DNA of 33,515 nt from Halodesulfovibrio sp. (GTDB lineage: Bacteria > Desulfobacterota > Desulfovibrionia > Desulfovibrionales > Desulfovibrionaceae): assembly GCA_003252375.1 (NCBI GenBank), contig QKEJ01000170.1, positions 1 to 33,515 on the forward strand, given 5' to 3'. The stretch's first letter is position 1. The number at the start of each line of letters is the position of its first letter. The translations under genes and the position numbers were made by a program. The notes beneath the pieces were generated by a model, which was not told where the DNA came from, did no database searches, and saw only the letters and a list, made by a program, of their open reading frames with translations. Positions 12,248-24,071 of the stretch are shown in pieces.

Positions 12248-13048
12248 ATGCATATTGGCAAGAATATCAGAATGGAACGTATCTTCAACCGGCTGACGGG
12301 GCGAACCATCATTGTTCCCCTGGACCACGGCGTGAGCGTGGGGCCCATCGACGGCCTTGTGGACATGCGTGAAACCGTGAACAGCATTGCCGAGGGCGGA
12401 GCGGACGCCGTGCTCATGCACAAGGGGCTTGTCCGCTGCGGGCACCGCGAGGGCGGAAAGGATGTCGGGCTCATCGTGCATCTGTCCAGCTCCACGTCCA
12501 TGTCTCCTTCTCCCAACGCCAAGTCGCTTACCGCGTCCGTTGAAGACGCCATCAAGCATGGTGCGGATGGCGTGTCCGTGCATGTGAACCTGGGTGACGA
12601 GACCGAGCGGGAGATGCTGGCCGACCTGGGCAGAATGGCCGCCAAGGCCTCGGACTGGGGCATTCCCCTTCTGGCCATGATGTATGCGCGCGGTCCCAAG
12701 ATTCAGAACCAGTTCGACCCCTCCGTTGTGGCTCACTGCGCCCGCGTGGCCGTGGAACTGGGGGCGGATATCGTGAAGGTTCCCTACACCGGTGACATGG
12801 ACACCTTCTCCCACGTGGTTGACGCCACCTGCGTGCCCGTGGTCATCGCCGGCGGTCCCAAGATGGATTCCACCCGCGAATTCATCCAGATGGTGCATGA
12901 CTCGGTACGTGCCGGTGGCGCAGGGCTCTCCGTGGGCCGGAACATTTTCCAGCATAAGCGTACCCCGCAGTTGGTCAAGGCGCTTCGTGGCGTGGTGCAC
13001 GAAGATTGGGACGTTGAACAGGCCATTGAAATAGTTGGCGAAGACTAG
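12248..13048 (+). CDS. 2-amino-3,7-dideoxy-D-threo-hept-6-ulosonate synthase, copy 2
   Basis: 266 residues, the same length as copy 1 and roughly two-thirds identical to it by eye. It keeps all the candidate active-site residues at the same positions (D26, H27, Y146, K177 in IVKVPYTGD). GAGG precedes the start; the gap to copy 1 is 40 bases. Differences cluster around residues 61-70 and 83-97 and at the C-terminus, so the two may differ in substrate preference or feedback control. Both look active. One could instead be a related class I aldolase, for example one that makes the deoxy-ketohexose phosphate precursor. Confidence 0.85.
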
Positions 13049-13070
13049 TTTTTACAAATTTGGAAATACT

Positions 13071-14042
13071 ATGAAAAAGGTACTGTTCAAGAGCGTCCCG
13101 TTTAATAAGGAACACATCACGCTGGCTCTCGAATCCGGTGTGGATGCCATTCTCGTTGCCAAGGGTGACGTCAAGAAGGTTGAATCGCTCGCCCGTTGCA
13201 CCGTCATTGCGGACGAGGCCATGCCGGTGATTGCATTCCACACCAAGCAGGACGAGGAAGAGGCCGTGAGCCGTCTCGTCAAGGGTGAGGATGTGGTCAT
13301 TGCGCGCGGGTGGGAGATCATTCCCATCGAGAATCTGCTGGCGCAGTCGGACAACGTGACCGTGGAAGTGGCAACGCTGGATGAGGCCAAGCTGGCAGCG
13401 GGTATTCTTGAACGAGGGGTCAACGCCGTGGTGGTCCTGCCCGAAGGCGTGGAGGAGTTGAAGCAGATCGTGGCAGAACTCAAGCTTTCGCAGGGCACGC
13501 TGGACCTGATGCCCGCCACCGTGACCAGTGTGGAGAATGTGGGCCTCGGCCACCGCGTCTGCGTGGATACCATGTCCGTGCTGAAGACCGGGCAGGGCAT
13601 GCTGGTGGGCAATTCCAGCGCCTTCACCTTCCTTGTAAACGCCGAGACGGAGCGGAATGAATACGTTGCGGCCCGTCCTTTCCGGGTCAATGCCGGAGCC
13701 GTGCACGCCTATGCGGTAATGCCCGGAGACAGGACCACCTATCTCGAAGAACTTTCTTCGGGGGACGAGGTGCTCATCGTCAACCATGACGGCTCCACCT
13801 CGCTGGCCACCATCGGCCGCTGCAAGGTCGAGGTCCGGCCCATGCTGCTCATCAAGGCCGTGGTCAACGGTGTGGAAGGCGCCGTGTTCCTGCAGAACGC
13901 GGAGACCATCCGCGTGGTGCGCAAGGACGGCTCCCCGGTGAGCGTTGTGGCCCTGAAGGAAGGGGACGAGATTCTTGTCCGCACCGACGCGGCCGGCCGC
14001 CATTTCGGCATGCGCATCAACGAAGAGATCAAGGAAGGGTAG
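13071..14042 (+). CDS. 3-dehydroquinate synthase II (archaeal-type AroB')
   Basis: 323 residues from the ATG at 13071. A TTG at 13035 is in frame but overlaps the preceding gene and adds only 12 unmatched residues. Family features are MKKVLFKSVPFNKEHITLALESG-type start, VARGWEIIPIENLLA, GLGHRVCVDTMSVLKTGQGMLVG-like central block and the C-terminal NGVEGAVFLQNAETIRVV. The enzyme oxidatively deaminates and cyclises ADTH to 3-dehydroquinate using NAD, bypassing classical AroB. It lies 22 bases after the second ADTH synthase and supplies the shikimate pathway. The ribosome binding site is weak. Confidence 0.9.
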   Translation: MKKVLFKSVPFNKEHITLALESGVDAILVAKGDVKKVESLARCTVIADEAMPVIAFHTKQDEEEAVSRLVKGEDVVIARGWEIIPIENLLAQSDNVTVEVATLDEAKLAAGILERGVNAVVVLPEGVEELKQIVAELKLSQGTLDLMPATVTSVENVGLGHRVCVDTMSVLKTGQGMLVGNSSAFTFLVNAETERNEYVAARPFRVNAGAVHAYAVMPGDRTTYLEELSSGDEVLIVNHDGSTSLATIGRCKVEVRPMLLIKAVVNGVEGAVFLQNAETIRVVRKDGSPVSVVALKEGDEILVRTDAAGRHFGMRINEEIKEG

Positions 14043-14044
14043 TC

Positions 14045-15202
14045 ATGTCCGATTCGGTAGACGACAACCCGCGCATCCACGAGGTGCGCAGCGAGATCGA
14101 TGCGACCGATCAGGAAATCCTGAAGCTGCTGAACCATCGCGCGTCGCTCAGTCTGGAGGTCGGGCAACTCAAACGCGGTACGCAGGACGTGATCTTCAAA
14201 CCCTTCCGCGAGAAGGAAGTGATGGAGAACCTGCGGCGCGGCAACGAGGGACCCATTCCCTTCGAGCACCTGCAGTCCATCTATCGCGAGGTCTTTTCCT
14301 CGTCCCGGGCCCTGCAGCGTCCGCAGCGCGTGGCGTACCTCGGCCCGGAAGGCACCTTCTCCTATTTTGCCGGGGTCGAGTTTCTCGGCAAGGCCGTGGA
14401 ATACCTGCCGCAGAAGAATCTGCATGAGGTCTTCCGCGCCGTGCATTCGCGTGAATGCGAGCTGGGGGTCATCCCGCTGGAGAATTCCCTTGAGGGAACG
14501 GTGGGCCAGAGTCTCGACCTGTTCATGGATTATGAACTGTACATTCAGGCGGAGCTCTACTGTCGCATCAGCCACAGCCTGCTGACCCGTGAGCGGTCGC
14601 TGGCCGCCATCCGCACGGTCTATTCGCATCCCCAGCCTCTGGGGCAGTGCGGCAGCTGGCTGCGCGCCAACCTGCCCAACGCCACCATTGTGCCCACCGA
14701 GAGCACGGCTGCTGCCGCCCGCCGCGTGCGGGAGGAAGAAGGTGCCGCCGCCATCGGACATGGCAAGCTGGCGGACCTGCTGGATCTGAAGGTGCTGGCG
14801 CGCGGCATTGAGAACATGCCCGACAACTGGACCCGCTTCGTCATTGTCGGACCCAGCCCGTCGGACGGGGAAGGCCGGGACAAGACCTCGCTGCTGTTCT
14901 CCATTCCGGACAAGTCCGGTTCGCTGGTGGACGTGCTGCAGGTGATGGCCGTGGAAGGCCTGAACATGAAGAAGCTGGAGTCGCGGCCCATGCGCGGCGA
15001 GAAATGGCGCTACGTGTTTTTTGTGGATGTGGAGTCCGACCTGTCCGGAGAGAAGTATGACGCCCTGATCAAGGACGTGCGCTCCCACTGCCAGAGCCTG
15101 CGGATTCTGGGCAGTTACCCCACCGGGCCCTACATAGACGTGTCTTCGCGGGTTGATGACAAAAATGTCCAATCCGTACCGGAAAGCGGAACCATCAAAT
15201 AG
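14045..15202 (+). CDS. pheA: Bifunctional chorismate mutase / prephenate dehydratase
   Basis: 385 residues, P-protein architecture. An AroQ-type chorismate mutase domain (about 10-90, IDATDQEILKLLNHRASL) is followed by prephenate dehydratase (from LGPEGTFSYFAG at about 98, with the TRF motif at 263-265) and a C-terminal ACT domain. The ACT domain carries the ESRP motif (from E312), the phenylalanine-binding site for feedback inhibition. It converts chorismate to prephenate and then to phenylpyruvate. The start is two bases after the preceding stop. About 20 residues after the ACT domain are a non-conserved tail. Confidence 0.95.
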   Translation: MSDSVDDNPRIHEVRSEIDATDQEILKLLNHRASLSLEVGQLKRGTQDVIFKPFREKEVMENLRRGNEGPIPFEHLQSIYREVFSSSRALQRPQRVAYLGPEGTFSYFAGVEFLGKAVEYLPQKNLHEVFRAVHSRECELGVIPLENSLEGTVGQSLDLFMDYELYIQAELYCRISHSLLTRERSLAAIRTVYSHPQPLGQCGSWLRANLPNATIVPTESTAAAARRVREEEGAAAIGHGKLADLLDLKVLARGIENMPDNWTRFVIVGPSPSDGEGRDKTSLLFSIPDKSGSLVDVLQVMAVEGLNMKKLESRPMRGEKWRYVFFVDVESDLSGEKYDALIKDVRSHCQSLRILGSYPTGPYIDVSSRVDDKNVQSVPESGTIK

Positions 15203-15261
15203 CGTGTCCGTGTTCCGGTGCTGCAGGGCGGATGCCGGAGAAGGCGGACAGAGGAATCGAC

Positions 15262-16587
15262 ATGAGCAAGGTGAGAGAGGTGGAAGCACCACCGTCCAAA
15301 TCGGTTTCACACCGAATGGTGATCGGGGCGGCTCTTGGGGTAGGCGAATCGCGGCTGGCCAACGTGCTGGAAAGCGATGATCTGAAGCGAACCATGGATA
15401 TCATGCAGGCCTGCGGGGCCCGCATCGAACGCCTGGGCGAGGGCCTGTACGCCATCAGCGGCGTTGCCGGAACTCCTGCAGGCGGATTCGAAGAGCCTGT
15501 CTCGTGCTATGTGGCCGAGTCGGGCACCACCTGCCGTCTCATTACCGCCGTGCTGGCCGCAGGGCTCGGACGCTTCCGGGTGCACGGCGCGCCGCGCATG
15601 CATGAACGGCCCATCGGCGATCTGGTCATGGCCCTGCGCATGCTCAATGTGGGCGTGGAGTGGGACGGCAAGACCGGGTATCCTCCCATCATAATAGATA
15701 CCAACGGCATGCCCGGCGGAGAGGTGAACATCGGCATGGACGAGTCCAGCCAGTACCTTTCCGGCCTGCTGCTGGCCGGTCCGCTGGGCAAGACCCTAAC
15801 CATCAACGTGACCGGCAACAAGGTGGTCAGCTGGCCCTATGTGGGGCTGACCCTGAAGGCCATGGAAGACTTCGGGCATCGGTTCCGCGTGGAAATGCTG
15901 GAAGACGAGGCCTGGGTGGAAAAGGATTGGCGCACCATCCGCAACGTGGTGCCCGGCAAGACCCGGTTTGTGGTCAAGCCCGGCATCTACCACGCCGGTG
16001 ACTACAAGGTGGAGGGCGATTGGTCCAATGCCTCCTATTTCCTCGGCGCGGGCGCCATCGGCCCCGACCCGGTGCGCATCTCCGGCCTGCGGAGCGATTC
16101 CCTGCAGGGTGACCGGGCCATGCTGCGCATTCTGCAGGACATGGGCGCCAAGGTGGAGGTGGAAGCCGACGCCGTGACCGTACATCCTTCCAAACTGCGG
16201 GGCATTACGGTGGACATGGGTGATTGCCCGGACATCGTGCCCACCGTGGCCGTGGTGGCCGCCTTTGCCGAGGGGCCCACAACCGTGACCAACGTGGCCC
16301 ATCTGCGCATCAAGGAATGTGACCGTCTGGCCGGACCTGCGGCACAGCTGGCCAAGGCCGGTGTGCGGGTGGAGGTGCATGATGACGGTCTGACCGTGCA
16401 TCCCGCCGGGCGCGAGTCCATTCAGGCCGCCGCCGGTACGGTGTTCGAGACCTACGGAGACCACCGCATGGCCATGAGTCTGGCCCTGCTCGGGTTCGCC
16501 GGGGTGGCGGTGGAACTGGACGATCCGAAATGTGTCGGCAAGTCCTTCCCCGGCTTCTGGCGCAAGTGGGCACGGGTGACGGCATGA
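15262..16587 (+). CDS. aroA: 3-phosphoshikimate 1-carboxyvinyltransferase (EPSP synthase)
   Basis: 441 residues from the ATG at 15262, with GAGG upstream. An in-frame ATG at 15232 would add ten residues and leave a shorter gap to pheA, but the homology starts at the later one. The shikimate-phosphate site is PPSKSVSHR (S12-K13-S14); others are ESDDLKRT, LNVGVEWDG, DIVPTVAVVAAFA, RIKECDRL and TYGDHRMAMSLAL. It joins PEP to shikimate-3-phosphate to give EPSP. The phosphate-binding loop reads AESGTTCRL where many bacterial enzymes have GNAGTAMR, so it belongs to a divergent class. Its stop overlaps the tyrA start. Confidence 0.93.
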   Translation: MSKVREVEAPPSKSVSHRMVIGAALGVGESRLANVLESDDLKRTMDIMQACGARIERLGEGLYAISGVAGTPAGGFEEPVSCYVAESGTTCRLITAVLAAGLGRFRVHGAPRMHERPIGDLVMALRMLNVGVEWDGKTGYPPIIIDTNGMPGGEVNIGMDESSQYLSGLLLAGPLGKTLTINVTGNKVVSWPYVGLTLKAMEDFGHRFRVEMLEDEAWVEKDWRTIRNVVPGKTRFVVKPGIYHAGDYKVEGDWSNASYFLGAGAIGPDPVRISGLRSDSLQGDRAMLRILQDMGAKVEVEADAVTVHPSKLRGITVDMGDCPDIVPTVAVVAAFAEGPTTVTNVAHLRIKECDRLAGPAAQLAKAGVRVEVHDDGLTVHPAGRESIQAAAGTVFETYGDHRMAMSLALLGFAGVAVELDDPKCVGKSFPGFWRKWARVTA

Positions 16588-17378
16588 GTCCGGAAGGGGA
16601 GTTTCGCTCCGACCGGGTGGCCGTCATCGGCGCGCACGGTCGCATGGGGCGCATGTTCTGCACCCGTTTCCGGGCCGCAGGCCTGGATGTGGTGGAGCTT
16701 GACCAGCCATTGACGGAATTGTCACTTCGGGCTGGACTGTCAGAGGCTGGTGTGATACTGCTGTGCATCCCTGCCGCAGTATTCGATTCGGTACTGCAGC
16801 AGATTCGGGACATCATCCGTCCACCACAGGTGTTGGTGGACATAACGTCGGTCAAGGTACAACCCATGCATCAGATGCAGCGCACATACGCGGGCCCCAT
16901 TGTGGGAACGCATCCGCTCTTCGGCCCCGAGCCGAAGAAGGATGAGGTGCGCGTGGCTGTCACCCCCGCCGACGGAACGGACGAAGCCTGCGTGGCCATG
17001 GTGGAGAACCTGTTCTCCCGCATCGGCTGCGAGCCGTTCCGTACCACGGCGGAGGAGCACGATGAGGCCGCCGCCCTGATTCAGGGCCTGAACTTCATCA
17101 CCACTGTTTCCTACCTTGCCACCTTGGCGCACAAGGATGAGATCACCCCGTATCTCACGCCTTCCTTCCAGCGTCGTCTGGATGCCGCCAGGAAGATGCT
17201 GACCGAGGACGCCGAGTTGTTCGAAGGGCTTTTCGAAGCCAACCCCAGCTCGCAGAATGTCGTCCGTTCCTTCCGTAACATGTTGAACATTGCCGCCGGC
17301 GGTGACGTGAACGTGCTCGTAGAGCGCGCTCTTTGGTGGTGGCGTGAGGACAATGATACGGGAGGGGTGCGTCAGTAG
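16584..17378 (+). CDS. tyrA: Prephenate dehydrogenase; 3' end doubles as trp leader
   Basis: 264 residues; the ATG at 16584 overlaps the aroA stop (ATGA). The nucleotide-binding loop is GAHGRMG (16-22). GTHPLFGPEP and EEHDEAAALIQGLNF are the prephenate-binding and helical-domain motifs of TyrA. The enzyme makes 4-hydroxyphenylpyruvate. It has no chorismate mutase domain; PheA supplies that step. The C-terminus reads LWWWRE then ten ordinary residues. W251-W253 are encoded by three successive TGG codons at 17334-17342, only 33 bases before the stop and 64 bases before a strong terminator ahead of trpE. This looks like a trp leader embedded in an enzyme gene. Confidence 0.9.
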   Translation: MSPEGEFRSDRVAVIGAHGRMGRMFCTRFRAAGLDVVELDQPLTELSLRAGLSEAGVILLCIPAAVFDSVLQQIRDIIRPPQVLVDITSVKVQPMHQMQRTYAGPIVGTHPLFGPEPKKDEVRVAVTPADGTDEACVAMVENLFSRIGCEPFRTTAEEHDEAAALIQGLNFITTVSYLATLAHKDEITPYLTPSFQRRLDAARKMLTEDAELFEGLFEANPSSQNVVRSFRNMLNIAAGGDVNVLVERALWWWREDNDTGGVRQ

Positions 17379-17442
17379 CTGACCACCAGGCAGAGTATGA
17401 GTTCTCAACGCCGCGTTCCTCCCGGAACGCGGCGTTTTTTTT
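17332..17442 (+). promoter_or_regulatory. trp attenuator using the tyrA 3' end as leader
   Basis: Three TGG codons (17334-17342) are followed by GGGAGGGGTGCG (17360-17371, still inside tyrA). That segment can pair over 12 consecutive bases, three of them G-U, with CGCGTTCCTCCC (17412-17423), the left arm and loop of the terminator. A ribosome stalled at the Trp codons should leave 17360-17371 free and allow read-through; one at the tyrA stop (17376-17378) would cover it. The Trp codons themselves (17332-17340) can also pair with 17382-17390 over nine bases, like helix 1:2 of the E. coli trp leader. Confidence 0.75.
17407..17442 (+). terminator. Strong terminator between tyrA and trpE
   Basis: AACGCCGCGTTCC (17407-17419) and GGAACGCGGCGTT (17424-17436) form a perfect 13-bp stem with a TCCC loop, running into a tract of eight T (17435-17442). 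It lies inside the supraoperon, so trp expression must depend on read-through unless there is a promoter at 17443-17601. I see no good one there. Confidence 0.92.
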
Positions 17443-17601
17443 GATGCGCGCCCCTGCATGGAGCAGGCGCAGGATGATGCAAGAACGGTTTCCCGCCCTC
17501 CCCGCGTAGAGGTGGAGACGGGAACGGAAAACGGCACAAACGCTCTCGTGCGGAACCGGTCCGCAGGGACAACATACCAACGACGTCAGGGAGACAACCG
17601 A

Positions 17602-19017
17602 ATGAACGTACTACTCAAGCAGACTGGCCAATGGCTGGCGGCGGACATCCAGACGCCCATCAGCCTCTTCCTCGGATTGGTGGGCTCGGGGCAGGGATTC
17701 CTGCTCGAAAGCGCCGAGGTGGATGGCCGGTGGGGCCGCTACAGTGTGATCGGGTTCAACTTCCTGCTTCGTCTCGGCTGCAAGGAAGGCAAACTGGAGG
17801 TCGCATCGCGCGACAAGCGTCTAGATTTTCTGAAACAATTTGAAGGGATGGATTACGTGAGCGGCGTGCGCGCGGTGAACGGAGCCATCACTGTGCAGGC
17901 GGCGGAAGGGTTTGAGAATCTGCCCCCCATCGCCCGCGGGCTGTTCGGCTATTTCGGCTACGGCACCGCCGGGATGTTCGAACCCAAGCTGCGCAACGTG
18001 CTGCCGCCGGAAAACGCGGAAGCCTGCCTGGTGTTGCCCGGAACCATCGTGCTTTTCGACCACCTGTACAACAAGCTGTGTCTGCTCAATCTGGCTGAGG
18101 GGCTCAATGTACGCATGGACCGCTCCGCCGTGGAGCGCAAGGCCGAGCCACCGGACGTGGGGCCCATCACCACCATTCCGGACCGGGGCACCTACATCCG
18201 CAACGTGGAACGCGTGAAGGAGCTCATCCGGCAGGGCGAGGCCATTCAGGTGGTCATCTCCACCCGGTTCCAGGCCTCCTTTGCAGGCGAACCGTTCGTG
18301 CTGTACCGGCGGCTGCGGCAGATCAACCCCTCGCCGTACATGTTCTTCATGCGTCTGCCCGGCGTGAGCCTTATCGGTTCCTCCCCCGAGGTGCTGGTGC
18401 GCAGCAGCAAGGGCGAAGTGGAGGTCTGCCCCATTGCCGGAACGCGTCCCCGCGGCGCTTCCGAGGCGGAAGACCTGACTCTGGCCGAGGACCTCAAGGC
18501 CGATCCCAAGGAACAGGCCGAGCATGTCATGCTGGTGGATCTTGGCCGGAACGACGTGGGCCGCGTGTCCGCACCGGGGACCGTGTCCGTGGACAAGTAC
18601 ATGCAGGTGGAAAAGTTCAGCCACGTCATGCACATGACCTCGTACGTGAAGGGAACCCTGCAGGAGGGGCGTGACGCGCTGGACGTGCTTGCCGCCACCT
18701 TCCCCGCGGGCACCGTGAGCGGCGCGCCCAAGGTGCGGGCCATGGAGATCATTGCAGACATGGAAGCCCTGCAGCGCGGACCCTATGCAGGCGCCGTGGG
18801 CTGGATGAGCCTTGATGAGGGCAATGCGGACATGGATACCGGCATCCTCATCCGGACCATGTGGGTGCGTGACGGCCTGGTGCAGTGGCAGTGCGGCGCC
18901 GGCATCGTGCACGATTCCGTACCGGAAAAGGAATGGGAAGAATGCCACAACAAGGCGCGCGTGCTGAAGATCACCATTAACGGAACGGGAGACGGCGATG
19001 TTTTTGCTTATAGATAA
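17602..19017 (+). CDS. trpE: Anthranilate synthase component I
   Basis: 471 residues from the ATG at 17602, with GGGAG eight bases upstream. The frame is open to 17458, but the extra 48 codons resemble nothing. The LLES motif (34-37) is the tryptophan feedback site. Chorismate-binding motifs follow: NPSPYMFFMRLPG, GSSPEVLVR, CPIAGTRPRG, LVDLGRNDVGRV, GTVSGAPKVRAMEI and the C-terminal QCGAGIVHDS. With TrpG it makes anthranilate from chorismate and glutamine. The 160 bases upstream hold only a small hairpin near the ribosome binding site (17550-17564) after the attenuator. It overlaps trpG by 20 bases. Confidence 0.95.
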   Translation: MNVLLKQTGQWLAADIQTPISLFLGLVGSGQGFLLESAEVDGRWGRYSVIGFNFLLRLGCKEGKLEVASRDKRLDFLKQFEGMDYVSGVRAVNGAITVQAAEGFENLPPIARGLFGYFGYGTAGMFEPKLRNVLPPENAEACLVLPGTIVLFDHLYNKLCLLNLAEGLNVRMDRSAVERKAEPPDVGPITTIPDRGTYIRNVERVKELIRQGEAIQVVISTRFQASFAGEPFVLYRRLRQINPSPYMFFMRLPGVSLIGSSPEVLVRSSKGEVEVCPIAGTRPRGASEAEDLTLAEDLKADPKEQAEHVMLVDLGRNDVGRVSAPGTVSVDKYMQVEKFSHVMHMTSYVKGTLQEGRDALDVLAATFPAGTVSGAPKVRAMEIIADMEALQRGPYAGAVGWMSLDEGNADMDTGILIRTMWVRDGLVQWQCGAGIVHDSVPEKEWEECHNKARVLKITINGTGDGDVFAYR

Positions 19018-19582
19018 TTACGACTCCTTCACCTTCAATCTGGTGCAGGCGTTTCAGAAGACCGGCAAGGATCCCGTGGTCTACAAGAACGACGATCCGC
19101 GCATTCTGGAATTGGCCGAAAGCGGCACGCTGGACATGGTGTGCATCTCTCCCGGTCCCAGCAACCCGGTGAACGCCGGTCTGTGCCTTGAGTTCCTTGC
19201 CCGCCTGCCCAAGACCGTGCCCGTGCTGGGCGTGTGCCTGGGACACCAGATTCTTGGCCATTTTGCCGGAGCCAGCGTGGTCATCGGGCCGCGCATCATG
19301 CACGGCAAGTCGTCCATGCTGGAGCACGACGGCACCGGGCTGTTCCAGGGCGTCGCCTCGCCCATGCAGATCGGCCGGTACCATTCGCTCATCGTGAACG
19401 TGCACGAGGCGCCGGAACTGCTGGAGGCCACCTCGGCCGTGCAGTCCGAGGACGGGCAGACCGAGGTCATGTCGCTGCGGTACGTCGACCGCCCCTGGGT
19501 GGGTGTGCAGTTCCATCCGGAATCCGTTCTGACGCCGGAAGGGGAGATCCTGCTGGCCAACTTTCCCGAAACCATCGCGTAG
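18998..19582 (+). CDS. trpG: Anthranilate synthase component II (glutamine amidotransferase)
   Basis: 194 residues, class I glutamine amidotransferase. LLIDNYDSFTFNL opens the protein. The oxyanion motif is SPGPSNP, the nucleophile is C80 in GVCLGHQ, and the catalytic pair is H173 and E175 in QFHPES. It releases ammonia from glutamine for TrpE. Its ATG lies inside the last codons of trpE (20-base overlap), a usual arrangement for equal synthesis of two subunits. It is a separate gene, not fused to trpD as in enterobacteria. Confidence 0.95.
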   Translation: MFLLIDNYDSFTFNLVQAFQKTGKDPVVYKNDDPRILELAESGTLDMVCISPGPSNPVNAGLCLEFLARLPKTVPVLGVCLGHQILGHFAGASVVIGPRIMHGKSSMLEHDGTGLFQGVASPMQIGRYHSLIVNVHEAPELLEATSAVQSEDGQTEVMSLRYVDRPWVGVQFHPESVLTPEGEILLANFPETIA

Positions 19583-19591
19583 GAGGCTGCT

Positions 19592-20587
19592 GTGAAAACT
19601 GTTGAGATTCTGGAGACGCTGGCTGCAGGGCAGGACCTTTCCGCCGAGATGGCCGAAGTGGCCTTTACCCGCATGATGGATGGCGAGATGAGTCCGGTGC
19701 AGGCCGGTTCGGTCCTCATGGGCCTGCGTCAGAAAGGGGAGACCGCACAGGAGATGGCCACGGCTGTCGCCGTGTGCCTGGAGCGGGCCCGCAAGGTGAC
19801 AGGCCTTTCCGGCAAGCGCATTGATCCGGTGGGCACGGGGGGGGACGGCAAGAACAGCTTCAACTGCTCCACGGCCACGGCCCTGACCCTGGCGGGCATG
19901 GGCTATCAGGTTACCAAGCACGGCAACAGGGCGGTATCCTCTTCGTGCGGCAGCGCCGATGCCGTGGACGGTCTGGGTCTGCCCATGCTGCAGGAGGTGC
20001 CGGACATCCTTGAGGAGCTTTCCCGGCGCAACTTCGTGTTCCTGTTCGCCCCGTACTTCCATCCGGCGTTCAAGCACATCATGCCCGTGCGGCAGGAGCT
20101 GGGCATGCGGACCCTCTTCAACATGCTGGGGCCGCTGCTGAACCCTGCCCGGCCCACGCATCAGCTGCTGGGCGTCGCCCGGCCGGAACACCTGCAGCTC
20201 ATGGCGGATTCGCTTGCTCTTTCGGGCATAGAGCGCGCCGCCGTGGTGCACGGTGCAGGCGGGTATGACGAACTGACCCCCATGGGGCCGGCACAGGTGA
20301 TCATGGTGGAGGGAACCGAAACCCGGGCCACCACCATAGATCCTGCGCAGTTCGGCATTGCCCCGTGCAAGCCGGAGGAACTGGCCGTCTCCGGCAAGGA
20401 GCAGGGACTGGCCGTGCTCGGCGAGTTGCTGGCGGGCAAGGGCTCCGCCCCCATGCGCGAGATGCTCGTCTTCAACGTGGGCGTGGCCGTGCATCTTCTG
20501 GAGGATGGCCGGGACATGCAGGCGTGCATGGACATGGCGCGTGAGGCTGTCATGGCCGGAGCCGGCGGGAAGGTGCTGCATGCTTGA
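19592..20587 (+). CDS. trpD: Anthranilate phosphoribosyltransferase
   Basis: 331 residues, starting with GTG at 19592; AGGAGG overlaps the trpG stop six bases upstream. The PRPP-binding loop GTGGDGKNSFNCST (from residue 81), KHGNRAVSSSCGSADA (from 109) and the DE motif region (GGYDELTPMGP) are typical. It attaches phosphoribosyl to anthranilate. The length is normal and the 3' end overlaps trpC by eight bases. Confidence 0.95.
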   Translation: MKTVEILETLAAGQDLSAEMAEVAFTRMMDGEMSPVQAGSVLMGLRQKGETAQEMATAVAVCLERARKVTGLSGKRIDPVGTGGDGKNSFNCSTATALTLAGMGYQVTKHGNRAVSSSCGSADAVDGLGLPMLQEVPDILEELSRRNFVFLFAPYFHPAFKHIMPVRQELGMRTLFNMLGPLLNPARPTHQLLGVARPEHLQLMADSLALSGIERAAVVHGAGGYDELTPMGPAQVIMVEGTETRATTIDPAQFGIAPCKPEELAVSGKEQGLAVLGELLAGKGSAPMREMLVFNVGVAVHLLEDGRDMQACMDMAREAVMAGAGGKVLHA

Positions 20588-21350
20588 GCGCTTCCGCAAG
20601 GCCAAGGCCGACGAGATTGCGGCGCTTGAATCCCTTGCCGCGCAGGGAGCCATGCCAGCGCCCCTGCGGGGTATGCGCCCCTCGTTCAGCAATGCGTTAC
20701 GACAGCCCGGACTGTCGGCCATCTGCGAGTACAAGCGCGCCTCGCCCTCCAAGGGGGAGATCAACCTCGCGCTGACGCCCGAGGACGTGGCCGGCCAGTA
20801 TCGTGACGGCGGCGCGGCCGCGCTGTCCATTCTGACGGAGGAGGTCTACTTCAAGGGAGAGCTGTCCTTTCTGGATCGCGTTACCTTCACGGGCCTGCCG
20901 TTGCTGCGCAAGGACTTCCTCTTCCATCCGCTGCAGGTGGAGCGGACGGCGGCGACACCGGCCTCGGCCCTGCTGCTTATCGTGCGCATGTTCGACAGCG
21001 TAACGCCCCTCCGGGCGCTGCTGGACAGGACGCACGCCCTCGGCATGGAGGCCGTGGTGGAGGTGTTTGACGAGCGTGATCTGGATATGGCCCGCGAGGC
21101 CGGGTCCCGGATCATACAGGTGAACAACCGGAACCTTGATACATTGCAAACGGACCTTGCCATTTGTGAGCGACTGGTGCACGACCGTAGCAACGCTGAA
21201 GTATGGATTGCCGCCAGCGGCATATCCACCCCCGAACACGTGCGCCATGTGGCGTCCCTGGGATACGACGCAATGCTTGTGGGAACCGCGCTCATGCAGG
21301 ACGGCGCCCCCGGCAGGGCACTGCAGGCACTCTTGGCCCCGCCTGCATAG
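20580..21350 (+). CDS. trpC: Indole-3-glycerol phosphate synthase
   Basis: 256 residues from the ATG at 20580, inside the end of trpD. The (beta/alpha)8-barrel signature ICEYKRASPSKGEIN supplies E50, K52 and K58. PLLRKDFLFHPLQV holds the next catalytic lysine, followed by EVFDERDL, VNNRNLDTLQTD and AASGIST for the phosphate site. It closes the indole ring of CdRP. It is monofunctional, since trpF is a separate gene 21 bases downstream. Confidence 0.94.
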   Translation: MLERFRKAKADEIAALESLAAQGAMPAPLRGMRPSFSNALRQPGLSAICEYKRASPSKGEINLALTPEDVAGQYRDGGAAALSILTEEVYFKGELSFLDRVTFTGLPLLRKDFLFHPLQVERTAATPASALLLIVRMFDSVTPLRALLDRTHALGMEAVVEVFDERDLDMAREAGSRIIQVNNRNLDTLQTDLAICERLVHDRSNAEVWIAASGISTPEHVRHVASLGYDAMLVGTALMQDGAPGRALQALLAPPA

Positions 21351-21371
21351 TCGGCAAGGAGAAAGAGAGAC

Positions 21372-22010
21372 ATGTTGGACAAGGAAATCTTCGTCAAGGT
21401 ATGCGGCATCACCAACCAGAAGGATGCCGATCTGTGCGTGCAGTACGATGCCGATCTCATCGGCTTCATCTTCCATGAAAAAAGCCCCCGCAACATGACC
21501 GTGGAAAAGGTCCGGGCCATCGAGACGGATGGCCTGATGCGCACGGGGGTCTTCGTGGATCAGAGCGTGGATGAGATCAAGCACATCATGCAGCACGCCC
21601 GCCTCAACCTTGCGCAACTGCACGGTGACCAGGACCTCGAGTTCTGTAAGGCGCTGGGCAAGACGCGGGTGATGAAGGTTTTCTGGCCGGAGCGCTATGC
21701 CACGAGGGAGGCGCTGGAAGAGGACATGGAACGCTTTGCTCCCTATTCCCGGTTCTACCTCTTCGACGCGGGCAGCAAGGGAGGCGGCCATGGCGTGCAG
21801 CAGGACTGGTCTTTCCTTGCAGGAACACGCGGCATCAAGACGTGGTTCATCGCCGGCGGTCTGGGACCGGATACCCTGAAGCAGGCCATCATGGGCTGCA
21901 ATCCCTGCGGCATTGACCTGAATTCCGGTGTGGAGAGCGCTCCCGGCGTCAAGAGCGAGGAAAAGCTCAAGGCCGTGTTCAACATGATTCATACCTCGCT
22001 GGTGGGCTGA
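21372..22010 (+). CDS. trpF: Phosphoribosylanthranilate isomerase
   Basis: 212 residues. VKVCGITNQKDAD holds the catalytic Cys (C11). DLIGFIFHEKSPRN, LNLAQLHGDQD, the phosphate-binding AGGLGPDT and GIDLNSGVES complete the family pattern. It performs the Amadori rearrangement of PRA to CdRP. The start codon follows a purine-rich GGAGAAAGAGAGA stretch. It lies between trpC and trpB as in many proteobacteria that keep the steps unfused. Confidence 0.94.
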   Translation: MLDKEIFVKVCGITNQKDADLCVQYDADLIGFIFHEKSPRNMTVEKVRAIETDGLMRTGVFVDQSVDEIKHIMQHARLNLAQLHGDQDLEFCKALGKTRVMKVFWPERYATREALEEDMERFAPYSRFYLFDAGSKGGGHGVQQDWSFLAGTRGIKTWFIAGGLGPDTLKQAIMGCNPCGIDLNSGVESAPGVKSEEKLKAVFNMIHTSLVG

Positions 22011-22086
22011 CCCGCCTGCGATAACGGTCTTCGGAGAGCGCCCTGCGGTGTCTCTGATCATCCATACTTTAGCGAACGAGCAGACA

Positions 22087-23283
22087 ATGAAAAAAGGATA
22101 CTTCGGCGACTTCGGTGGTCAGTTCGTGGCGGAATTGCTTATTCCCCCGCTGCGCGAGCTGGAGCACGCCCTTAAAACCATAGTTCCCTCTCCCGAGTTT
22201 CAGGCCGAATTCACGGCCCTTCTCAAGGATTACGTGGGCCGCAAGAGTCCGCTGACCCTGTGTCCCTCCCTGTCCAAGGAATTGGGCTTCAACCTGTGGC
22301 TGAAGCGGGAAGACCTGAACCACACCGGTTCGCACAAGATCAACAATACCCTCGGGCAGGCCCTGCTGACCAAGTACATGGGCAAGCCCGCCCTGCTGAC
22401 GGAAACCGGTGCCGGCATGAACGGCGTGGCAACCGCCACGGCGGCCCGTGCGCTGGACCTTGACTGCATCGTCTTCATGGGTGCCACGGACGTGGCGCGC
22501 CAGTCGCACAACGTACGGCGCATGCAGCTGCTGGGCGCGGAGATCGTGCCCGTGCAGAACGGCACCAAGACGCTCAAGGATGCCATCAACGAGGCCCTGC
22601 GCTACTGGATTGCCGAGCAGCGCACCCACCACTACTGCTTCGGAACGGCCGCAGGACCGCACCCCTTCCCCACGCTGGTGCGGGAGTTTCAGGCCGTTGT
22701 GGGCCGGGAAGCCCGTGAGCAGATGCTGGAGAAGACCGGCGAACTGCCCTATGCGGTGGTGGCCTGCGTGGGGGGCGGCTCAAACGCCATCGGCGCCTTC
22801 CATGCCTTTGTTCCGGACGCAGGCGTCAGGCTCATCGGTGTCGAGGCTGCCGGGACCGGTGAGAAGGGCTGCTTCAATTCCGCCCCGCTCAACCTTGGCT
22901 CCCCCGGCGTGCTGCATGGCCAGATGACCATGCTGCTGCAGGACGATGACGGGCAGATTCTGCCCTCGCATTCCGTGGCCGCCGGTTTGGATTACCCCGG
23001 CGTCGGGCCCGAGCATGCTCACCTGCATGCCAGCGGACGCGCCACCTACGGGACGGTGAACGACGCACAGGCGCTGAACGCCTTCATGCGACTGACCCGT
23101 GCCGAGGGCATCATGCCCGCGCTGGAAAGCTCCCATGCCGTGGCGTGGGTGCTGGAGAACCGGGACCAGATTCCCAGGGGCGCCAACGTCATCGTCAATC
23201 TGTCGGGACGCGGCGACAAGGACATGGACATCATCGAGGAGAGCCTCGGTTCACTTCTCGGCCAGCAGGGCAGCAAAGGGTAG
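22087..23283 (+). CDS. trpB: Tryptophan synthase beta chain
   Basis: 398 residues from the ATG at 22087, chosen because homology starts at MKKGYFGDFGGQFVAE. A GTG at 22048 would add 13 residues with no better ribosome site. The PLP lysine is K84 in NHTGSHKINN. The catalytic glutamate lies in LTETGAGMNG. The PLP-phosphate loop is GGGSNAIG, and the C-terminal NLSGRGDKD is typical. It condenses indole with serine. It belongs to the TrpB1 class that works with TrpA, encoded eight bases downstream. Confidence 0.94.
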   Translation: MKKGYFGDFGGQFVAELLIPPLRELEHALKTIVPSPEFQAEFTALLKDYVGRKSPLTLCPSLSKELGFNLWLKREDLNHTGSHKINNTLGQALLTKYMGKPALLTETGAGMNGVATATAARALDLDCIVFMGATDVARQSHNVRRMQLLGAEIVPVQNGTKTLKDAINEALRYWIAEQRTHHYCFGTAAGPHPFPTLVREFQAVVGREAREQMLEKTGELPYAVVACVGGGSNAIGAFHAFVPDAGVRLIGVEAAGTGEKGCFNSAPLNLGSPGVLHGQMTMLLQDDDGQILPSHSVAAGLDYPGVGPEHAHLHASGRATYGTVNDAQALNAFMRLTRAEGIMPALESSHAVAWVLENRDQIPRGANVIVNLSGRGDKDMDIIEESLGSLLGQQGSKG

Positions 23284-23291
23284 GTGGCATC

Positions 23292-24071
23292 ATGACGACT
23301 TCAAGCCAGACATCTCGGTTGACGGACCGCATTTGTGCGGCCAACAAGGCGGGCCGCAAGGCTCTTATCCCCTTCCTTCCCGGCGGTTTTCCGGACAGGG
23401 AGAGCTTCTGGACCCATCTTGCCGCGCTTGATGCGGGCGGGGCGGACATCATAGAAGTGGGGGTTCCCTTCTCCGATCCCTGCGCCGACGGCCCCGTGGT
23501 GGAAAAAGCCTCCATTCAGGCGCTGGAGATGGGCACCACCCTCAAGTGGTTGCTGGAAGGCCTGCGTGAGCGGGCGGGACAGTATCAGGCAGAACTGGTG
23601 CTCATGGGCTACCTGAATCCCTTCCTGCAGTACGGCTTTGAAAAACTGGCGGACGACGCCGTGGCCGCGGGCGTTTCCGGGTTCATCATCCCGGACCTGC
23701 CTCTGGACGAGGATGCGCCCTACCGTGCAATCCTGCAGGGCAGGGGCATGTCGCTGGTGCCGCTGGTGGGCCTGAACACTGATCTGGAACGCATGCAGGC
23801 CTACGCTGCCGTGTCCACGGGATACGTGTACGTGGTCTCCGTGCTGGGCACTACCGGGGCCCGCGAATCCTTCCCGGCGGAACTTGCCGACGCGCTGGCG
23901 AGGGCTCGCAAGGCCTTTGATCTGCCCATCGCCCTCGGGTTCGGCATCAAGGAACCCGCACAGCTTGCGGTATTCGGAGACACCATCGATGCGGTCATCT
24001 TCGGCAGCGCCCTGATTACGCACGTGCGCGAAAAGGGCAGCGTGGACGCGTTCATGGCCCGCTGGGCATAA
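23292..24071 (+). CDS. trpA: Tryptophan synthase alpha chain
   Basis: 259 residues. The catalytic pair is E55 (DIIEVGVPFSDP) and D66 (CADGPVV), spaced as in E. coli E49 and D60. LVPLVGLNTD, YVYVVSVLGTTGARE (loop 6) and GFGIKEPAQ (phosphate site) follow. It cleaves indole glycerol phosphate and channels indole to TrpB. It is the last gene of the supraoperon, followed by a terminator. Confidence 0.95.
   Translation: MTTSSQTSRLTDRICAANKAGRKALIPFLPGGFPDRESFWTHLAALDAGGADIIEVGVPFSDPCADGPVVEKASIQALEMGTTLKWLLEGLRERAGQYQAELVLMGYLNPFLQYGFEKLADDAVAAGVSGFIIPDLPLDEDAPYRAILQGRGMSLVPLVGLNTDLERMQAYAAVSTGYVYVVSVLGTTGARESFPAELADALARARKAFDLPIALGFGIKEPAQLAVFGDTIDAVIFGSALITHVREKGSVDAFMARWA

Follow-up and report, generated by a model that had tools for sequence, protein, structure and literature searches.

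The window analysed here is a 33,515-nucleotide stretch of Halodesulfovibrio sp. DNA (contig QKEJ01000170.1, positions 1 to 33,515), and all the features described below lie on its plus strand. Matches to Pfam families reveal an upstream supraoperon at 12248..16587, comprising a DeoC/LacD aldolase, DHQ synthase II, pheA and aroA. Next comes the would-be leader cistron tyrA, which encodes prephenate dehydrogenase (16584..17378; PDH_N, 6.7e-15, and translation). Its ATG start at 16584 is a guess, the reading frame being open from 16530. Beyond the junction lie trpE (17602..19017; Chorismate_bind, 1e-86, and Anth_synt_I_N), the first gene under putative control, with its reading frame open from 17458, then trpG (18998-19582; GATase), trpD (19592-20587; Glycos_transf_3) and trpC (to 21350; IGPS).

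The 3' end of tyrA carries three successive Trp codons (TGG TGG TGG, 17334..17342), a putative sensor, corresponding to TyrA residues 251-253 when numbered from 16584. Reading the sequence back confirmed the position that an earlier note on this DNA had given them, with 11 further codons separating the run from the TAG stop codon at 17376..17378. Within this coding tail lies the left antiterminator arm GGGAGGGGTGCG (17360..17371), which codes for part of ..TGGVRQ and would be covered by a ribosome terminating at the stop codon. It pairs with the right arm CGCGTTCCTCCC (17412..17423), made up of the 5' arm and loop of a terminator hairpin at 17407..17436 (13 bp, loop of 4), which leads into a T run at 17435..17442. 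The earlier note had described a 13-bp terminator with eight T and a 12-bp antiterminator. The stem is as described but two of the T close it, leaving six to follow, and the antiterminator, though present, consists of nine Watson-Crick and three G-U pairs. A segment overlapping the Trp codons (segment 1, 17332..17340) can, as had been suggested, pair with 17382..17390, and this possible 1:2 protector helix is visible in the sequence and in an alignment of the window's genus, g1.

A terminator scan of positions 14,000-24,000 returned five sites, a number no higher than in shuffled sequences (mean 6.0), among which that at 17407-17436 has by far the longest stem. The antiterminator duplex, at -19.7 kcal/mol, is equalled by 8 of 200 dinucleotide shuffles. 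Judged from the window sequence alone the antiterminator is suggestive only; the case for it is strong because of its conservation across loci, described below. The Rfam search of the window gave no match at a family's gathering score, neither to Trp_leader (RF00513) nor to T-box (RF00230). The 159 nt between the T run and trpE (17443-17601) contain no clear promoter and exceed the relatives' median distance, 58 nt from the end of the stem.

These elements very probably constitute a ribosome-mediated transcription attenuator of the trp genes in which the leader peptide is TyrA itself. The polymerase would traverse aro, pheA, aroA and tyrA, followed by the ribosome translating tyrA. With ample Trp-tRNA, the ribosome would reach the tyrA stop and cover the left antiterminator arm, so that the terminator would fold and transcription would stop before trpE. 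With scarce Trp-tRNA, it would stall on the Trp run, and the arm, starting some 16 nt past the last Trp codon, would stay free to pair with the 5' side of the terminator, allowing the polymerase to enter trpEGDC. The codons, arms and terminator, with their geometry, covariation and phylogenetic spread, can be read from sequence; a transcript shared by tyrA and trp, stalling, termination and a response to tryptophan are inferred.

The phylogenetic spread of the arrangement was assessed in two sets of loci. TyrA was sought in 297 genomes of the Desulfovibrionales and matched in 278. The first set comprises 150 loci fetched from the best matches listed, and is therefore biased towards relatives of the window. 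In 91 of them trpE lies behind tyrA on the fetched stretch, and 58 show no trpE there, counting among the latter L104, whose sequence ends 77 nt beyond the stop. The attenuator (Trp run, left arm and terminator) is present in 62 of the 150, from 19 genera: 61 of the 91 trpE-linked loci plus L038, where the contig ends before trpE. All were found by a scan except L120, recognised by reading its sequence, and in the 61 scanned loci the terminator lies 17-49 nt past the tyrA stop. Thirty trpE-linked loci (11 genera), overlapping gene pairs included, lack it. The later set consists of 30 more genomes, 24 of them from genera outside the first set. Here 18 loci are trpE-linked and 17 of these have run, arm and terminator, or 12 of 13 when only the previously unsampled genera are considered; the lone linked locus without the attenuator, in g30, reads KWW. 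Both sets combined, the attenuator is found in 25 genera of families f1-f6, and trpE follows tyrA without it in the 11 first-set genera and g30. A search of genome contigs with a single TyrA protein returned just one locus, L031 of D. cuneatus, which lacks the Trp run.

The linked loci without an attenuator are themselves varied. Inspection by eye of junctions in g18, g36, g12 and g19 found no T-run terminator of the attenuator type. Four of these loci (L024, L037 of g36; L082, L148 of g18) keep WWWR and have gaps of 95-214 nt; they may represent recent loss or another mode of control. In g19, three loci (L066, L070, L075) have at the attenuator's place a common hairpin, approximately CCAAAGGG...CCCTTTGG followed by GCCGCCGGAGGC, with no T run, and two others (L073, L089) have a very long, near-perfect inverted repeat right behind tyrA. 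Elsewhere tyrA and trpE overlap, leaving no space for an intercistronic terminator (L107, L108, L060 and L088, from g4, g6, g10 and g34); the first Trp of the run is gone in g4, g6 and g34 and retained in g10.

Both terminator and antiterminator sequences vary between genera. When left arms were exchanged between 18 genera, own arms paired better than foreign ones (0 of 5000 permutations, in three draws; z of -5.9 to -6.9 for the pairing sums). This effect is graded: among the 17 foreign arms tried for each genus a median of 3, and in g31 as many as 12, equal the own arm, which seldom comes out best of all. Covariation in the antiterminator, put forward in the earlier note as a check, is thus borne out by the exchange. 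Duplex energies point in the same direction, being matched by no more than 10 of 200 shuffles in 55 of the 61 scanned loci and by 28 of 200 in the worst, L058.

Within g1, the alignment covers the eight plus-strand loci of ten. The antiterminator positions are paired in 90.6% of cells, compared with 40-64% when the arms are slid against each other. One double change and four one-sided changes are seen, and three of the 12 pairs vary solely by breaking in some loci; in the terminator, four pairs show double changes. The core seven pairs of the 1:2 helix remain intact in 92.9% of cells and show one-sided changes only, which is what immovable Trp codons would produce. The same immobility renders a shuffle control of this helix uninformative. 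In other genera the helix is not evident in most single folds. A protector helix is a possible, not an established, part of the attenuator.

The left arm keeps its place relative to the Trp codons. Its first paired base comes 16.1 ± 2.2 nt after the final Trp codon ends, as measured over 78 loci (16.3, SD 2.0, in the 61 scanned loci; 15.5, SD 2.6, in 17 later ones). Over genus medians the SD of this distance is 1.78, compared with 7.65 for Trp-to-stop and 7.30 for stop-to-arm, and the SD of 2.0 among genus representatives compares with a mean of 13.8 and a minimum of 8.4 in 200 sets of mononucleotide shuffles. The tyrA stop meanwhile wanders over a range of 9-39 nt, and it is the fixed spacing of the arm against this moving stop that ties it to the codons. 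In genera with long tails (g1, g9, g44, g51) the arm is mostly within the coding tail; in those with short tails (g2, g7, g28) it extends past the stop or sits behind it. With an assumed ribosome footprint, a ribosome standing on the last Trp codon would leave the arm exposed in 60 of 61 loci, and one that has reached the stop would hide half or more of it, again in 60 of 61. The spacing thus agrees with the earlier claim that stalling frees the arm and termination of translation covers it.

The same geometry bears on a simpler mechanism, in which translation of tyrA would be coupled to the terminator with no amino-acid specificity. A ribosome following closely on the polymerase would then keep the hairpin from forming. 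There is a precedent in rph-pyrE of E. coli (PMC2784333). With the same assumed footprint, however, the leading edge of a ribosome at the stop falls short of the terminator in all 61 loci, and a specific, covarying antiterminator with Trp codons at a fixed distance would be needless for such coupling, which we regard as the least credible of the alternatives considered here.

An attenuator embedded in tyrA requires transcription of trpE from upstream. In 22 of 60 loci (8 genera), the inferred trpE start comes within 40 nt of the terminator stem, a distance that also has to hold the T run and the ribosome-binding site, leaving little promoter space. Upstream of the Trp run, the best promoter scores of 18 genus representatives average 6.8, compared with 6.6 in shuffles; for the dedicated leaders described below the corresponding means are 9.3 and 7.5. 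Given the scarce space and the shuffle-level scores, transcription of trpE probably starts upstream and passes through the terminator. An alternative explanation would be that the hairpin is an ordinary terminator of an aro-tyrA operon, that trpE has its own promoter downstream and that the Trp run is simply a feature of the protein. The 159 nt available in the window would suit this explanation, as would a promoter-like site scoring 9.5 behind the terminator of L112, the run of TyrAs with no trpE behind them and the ordered Trp helix of the structure model (see below). A simple promoter scan of 14,000-24,000 in the window found none. In the other 17 of 18 representatives the region behind the terminator scores 8.0 or less or has no site, these scores having no shuffle control. 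Since the short junctions, the exchange of arms, the locking of arm to codons and the weak promoter signal ahead of the run also stand against it, we consider a separate promoter for trpE very unlikely.

It might also be argued that the leader is a short in-frame peptide initiated within tyrA, rather than TyrA itself. Of 62 loci, 34 (that of the window among them) have an in-frame Met in the 35 residues preceding the run, and some relatives do have dedicated leaders of 25-37 residues. The other 28 loci have no such Met (GTG and TTG starts not counted), ten genera include loci that lack one, and no ribosome-binding sequence is seen by eye before the ATG of the window; the promoter signal there is, on average, not above that of shuffles. 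Internal initiation earns less credence than the separate promoter, and full-length TyrA remains the preferred leader.

The Trp run itself has a more complex distribution than the other elements. WWW is found in 60 of the 62 TyrAs with an attenuator. One relative in g1, L010, has LWW, and g50 has WWF. WWW is also seen in 51 of the 58 TyrAs whose fetched stretch has no trpE (g3 accounts for 43 of them) and in 9 of the 30 linked ones that lack the attenuator, so attenuation by itself does not explain why the run is kept. Counted by genus, WWW occurs in 24 of the 25 genera that have the attenuator and in 11 of the 27 that lack it (Fisher 1.8e-5, although genera are not phylogenetically independent). 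The Arg that follows the run is more discriminating, being present in 59 of 62 TyrAs with the attenuator, 8 of 58 without trpE and 7 of 30 linked but without the attenuator (15 of 88 for all first-set loci lacking it). The GG tail is found in 5 of the 58 without trpE. Twelve loci of the later set lack trpE within around 1,500 bases downstream: WWW is seen in g22 and g14, and the remaining ten loci, which represent seven genera, read WF, WY, WW or YF, so that the run is eroded in seven of eight further unlinked genera of that set. Outside the order, it is absent from 27 TyrAs (L154-L180, the best of 62 matching genomes).

The earlier note held that equal conservation of the run in TyrAs without trpE would count against attenuation. 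Such conservation is indeed seen in g3 and a few other genera, but not in the remainder. The persistence in g3 is not taken as a refutation, since a stand-alone Trp leader precedes trpE in 10 of the 10 g3 genomes examined, and since in unlinked TyrAs the Arg and GG tail are mostly lost and the run is eroded in the seven genera mentioned. It does show that in g3 the run is maintained by something other than the attenuator. Across 61 aligned TyrAs the second Trp never varies, and the third is present in 58. In a predicted structure of TyrA, the run falls within the confidently modelled last helix (242-257), and residues 260-264 are predicted to be disordered (pLDDT<50). A Trp pair so well conserved, in a confident helix, makes a role in the protein likely, in which case attenuation may have recruited the pair and extended it. 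Two curiosities may be recorded: four loci (L207, L209, L215 and L218, from g47 and g49) have four successive Trp codons rather than three, and in two g3 loci (L032, L034) the TyrA frame continues into a long Pro/Arg-rich tail, the last 80 residues being without the Trp run.

In 18 genomes with an unlinked tyrA, trpE was sought and 15 instances were found (L191-L205), ten of them in g3. All 15 are preceded by a short leader with Trp then Arg, and by a terminator. The leaders are 25-37 residues long (L194 being counted from the farther of two Met); 14 have tandem Trp, L202 reading Trp-Arg-Trp, and in four of the others the tandem is a pair and not a triplet. The left arm lies 14.5 nt (SD 3.1) past the last Trp, beginning in L191 only 5 nt after it, and in L195, L203 and L204 the pairing is equalled by 26, 25 and 29 of 200 shuffles. 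The best promoter match in 12 of the 15 is of TTGACA type, around 92-114 nt ahead of the Trp run.

The origin of these leaders was explored with a TyrA tree from which the tail columns were removed, made by a quick method and containing long branches. Genera g3, g11, g14, g21, g38 and g39 group together in a clade (SH-aLRT 96) nested within another (SH-aLRT 98) containing g1 and g9, both of the embedded form; g17 falls separately. Among embedded TyrA tails, the motif GG(D/E)VR is seen in g1 (4 of 10) and g9 (7 of 7) only, and it or a close variant is present in 10 of the 15 leaders. Comparison of leader and TyrA-tail DNA does not single out the sister genera g1 and g9, and the N-terminal halves of the leaders bear no resemblance to TyrA by eye. 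The tree, the shared geometry and the motif nevertheless favour detachment of the leaders from an embedded ancestor, and leaders and tree together suggest that the Trp run of unlinked TyrAs is inherited. One might go further and suppose, tentatively and with some doubt, that the TyrA tail was the ancestral trp sensor of the order, that the stand-alone leaders (those of the g3/g11/g14/g21 clade and, separately, of g17) are detached descendants that gained a start codon and a promoter, that the run left in TyrA is a relic, and that in linked species stalling also holds back the completion of TyrA. The 3' end of an enzyme gene would then have given rise to a leader peptide gene, and a lack of Trp in linked species would open the tryptophan branch and at the same time slow its tyrosine competitor.

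In most descriptions, leader peptides are short ORFs whose sole purpose is to be translated. The TyrA tail would instead be a single coding sequence under protein, codon and RNA-folding constraints together, and the attenuator would make a single junction the meeting point of the tyrosine and tryptophan branches. The linked, overlapped and detached arrangements offer a natural series for tracing the origin and loss of leader peptides. It may be, too, that other attenuators hide at ordinary gene ends, where searches for short leader ORFs or in 5' UTRs would miss them.

The gene order of the window, aroA'-aroB'-pheA-aroF-tyrA-trp, is that of the D. vulgaris supraoperon (Song et al. 2005, PMC1173090), for which a putative attenuator is given with Merino's website as source. 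In the available part of that paper the attenuator is marked (by a blank superscript) before aroA', not between tyrA and trp, and the TyrA tail is not mentioned. A full-text literature search, covering mostly open-access papers, yielded no description that we recognised of a trp attenuator embedded in TyrA. Nearest to hand are the dedicated leaders of the Desulfovibrionales themselves, which share the Trp-Arg, left arm and terminator with the TyrA tail but differ in having their own start codon and, in the 12 cases noted, a promoter match.

The rph-pyrE system of E. coli is not known to have regulatory amino-acid codons or an antiterminator, whereas a conserved antiterminator is found at the tyrA-trpE junction. 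In rph-pyrE, nucleotides are sensed by polymerase pausing. According to PMC2784333, attenuation ahead of the downstream gene depends in that system on translation of the enzyme gene before it, and it responds to pyrimidine (uracil/UTP) levels; the likeness to tyrA is that the upstream enzyme gene ends shortly ahead of the terminator. The earlier note knew of no described case: as regards an enzyme gene serving as leader cistron, rph-pyrE provides one, but for a Trp-codon sensor within an enzyme none was found in the literature searched. The closer functional parallel is trpL of E. coli, represented by RF00513, although the cut-off of that family was reached in none of 20 genomes (120 candidates scored per genome), and its lone low match (G042, E 0.64) sits at a tyrA-trpE junction. 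As in trpL, tandem Trp codons, conserved and in frame just upstream, are followed by Arg, an intrinsic terminator with a T run precedes trpE, the first structural gene, and the arm of a mutually exclusive antiterminator would be exposed or covered by the ribosome (again with an assumed footprint); in trpL a similar script places the arm 14 nt past the last Trp codon. Where trpL is a dedicated ORF of 14 residues, however, the codons here reside in full-length tyrA, encoding a full enzyme of the sister branch, with no conserved internal Met. As read from its sequence and geometry, the TyrA attenuator would work like trpL while departing from it in the short leader ORF by which trpL is defined.
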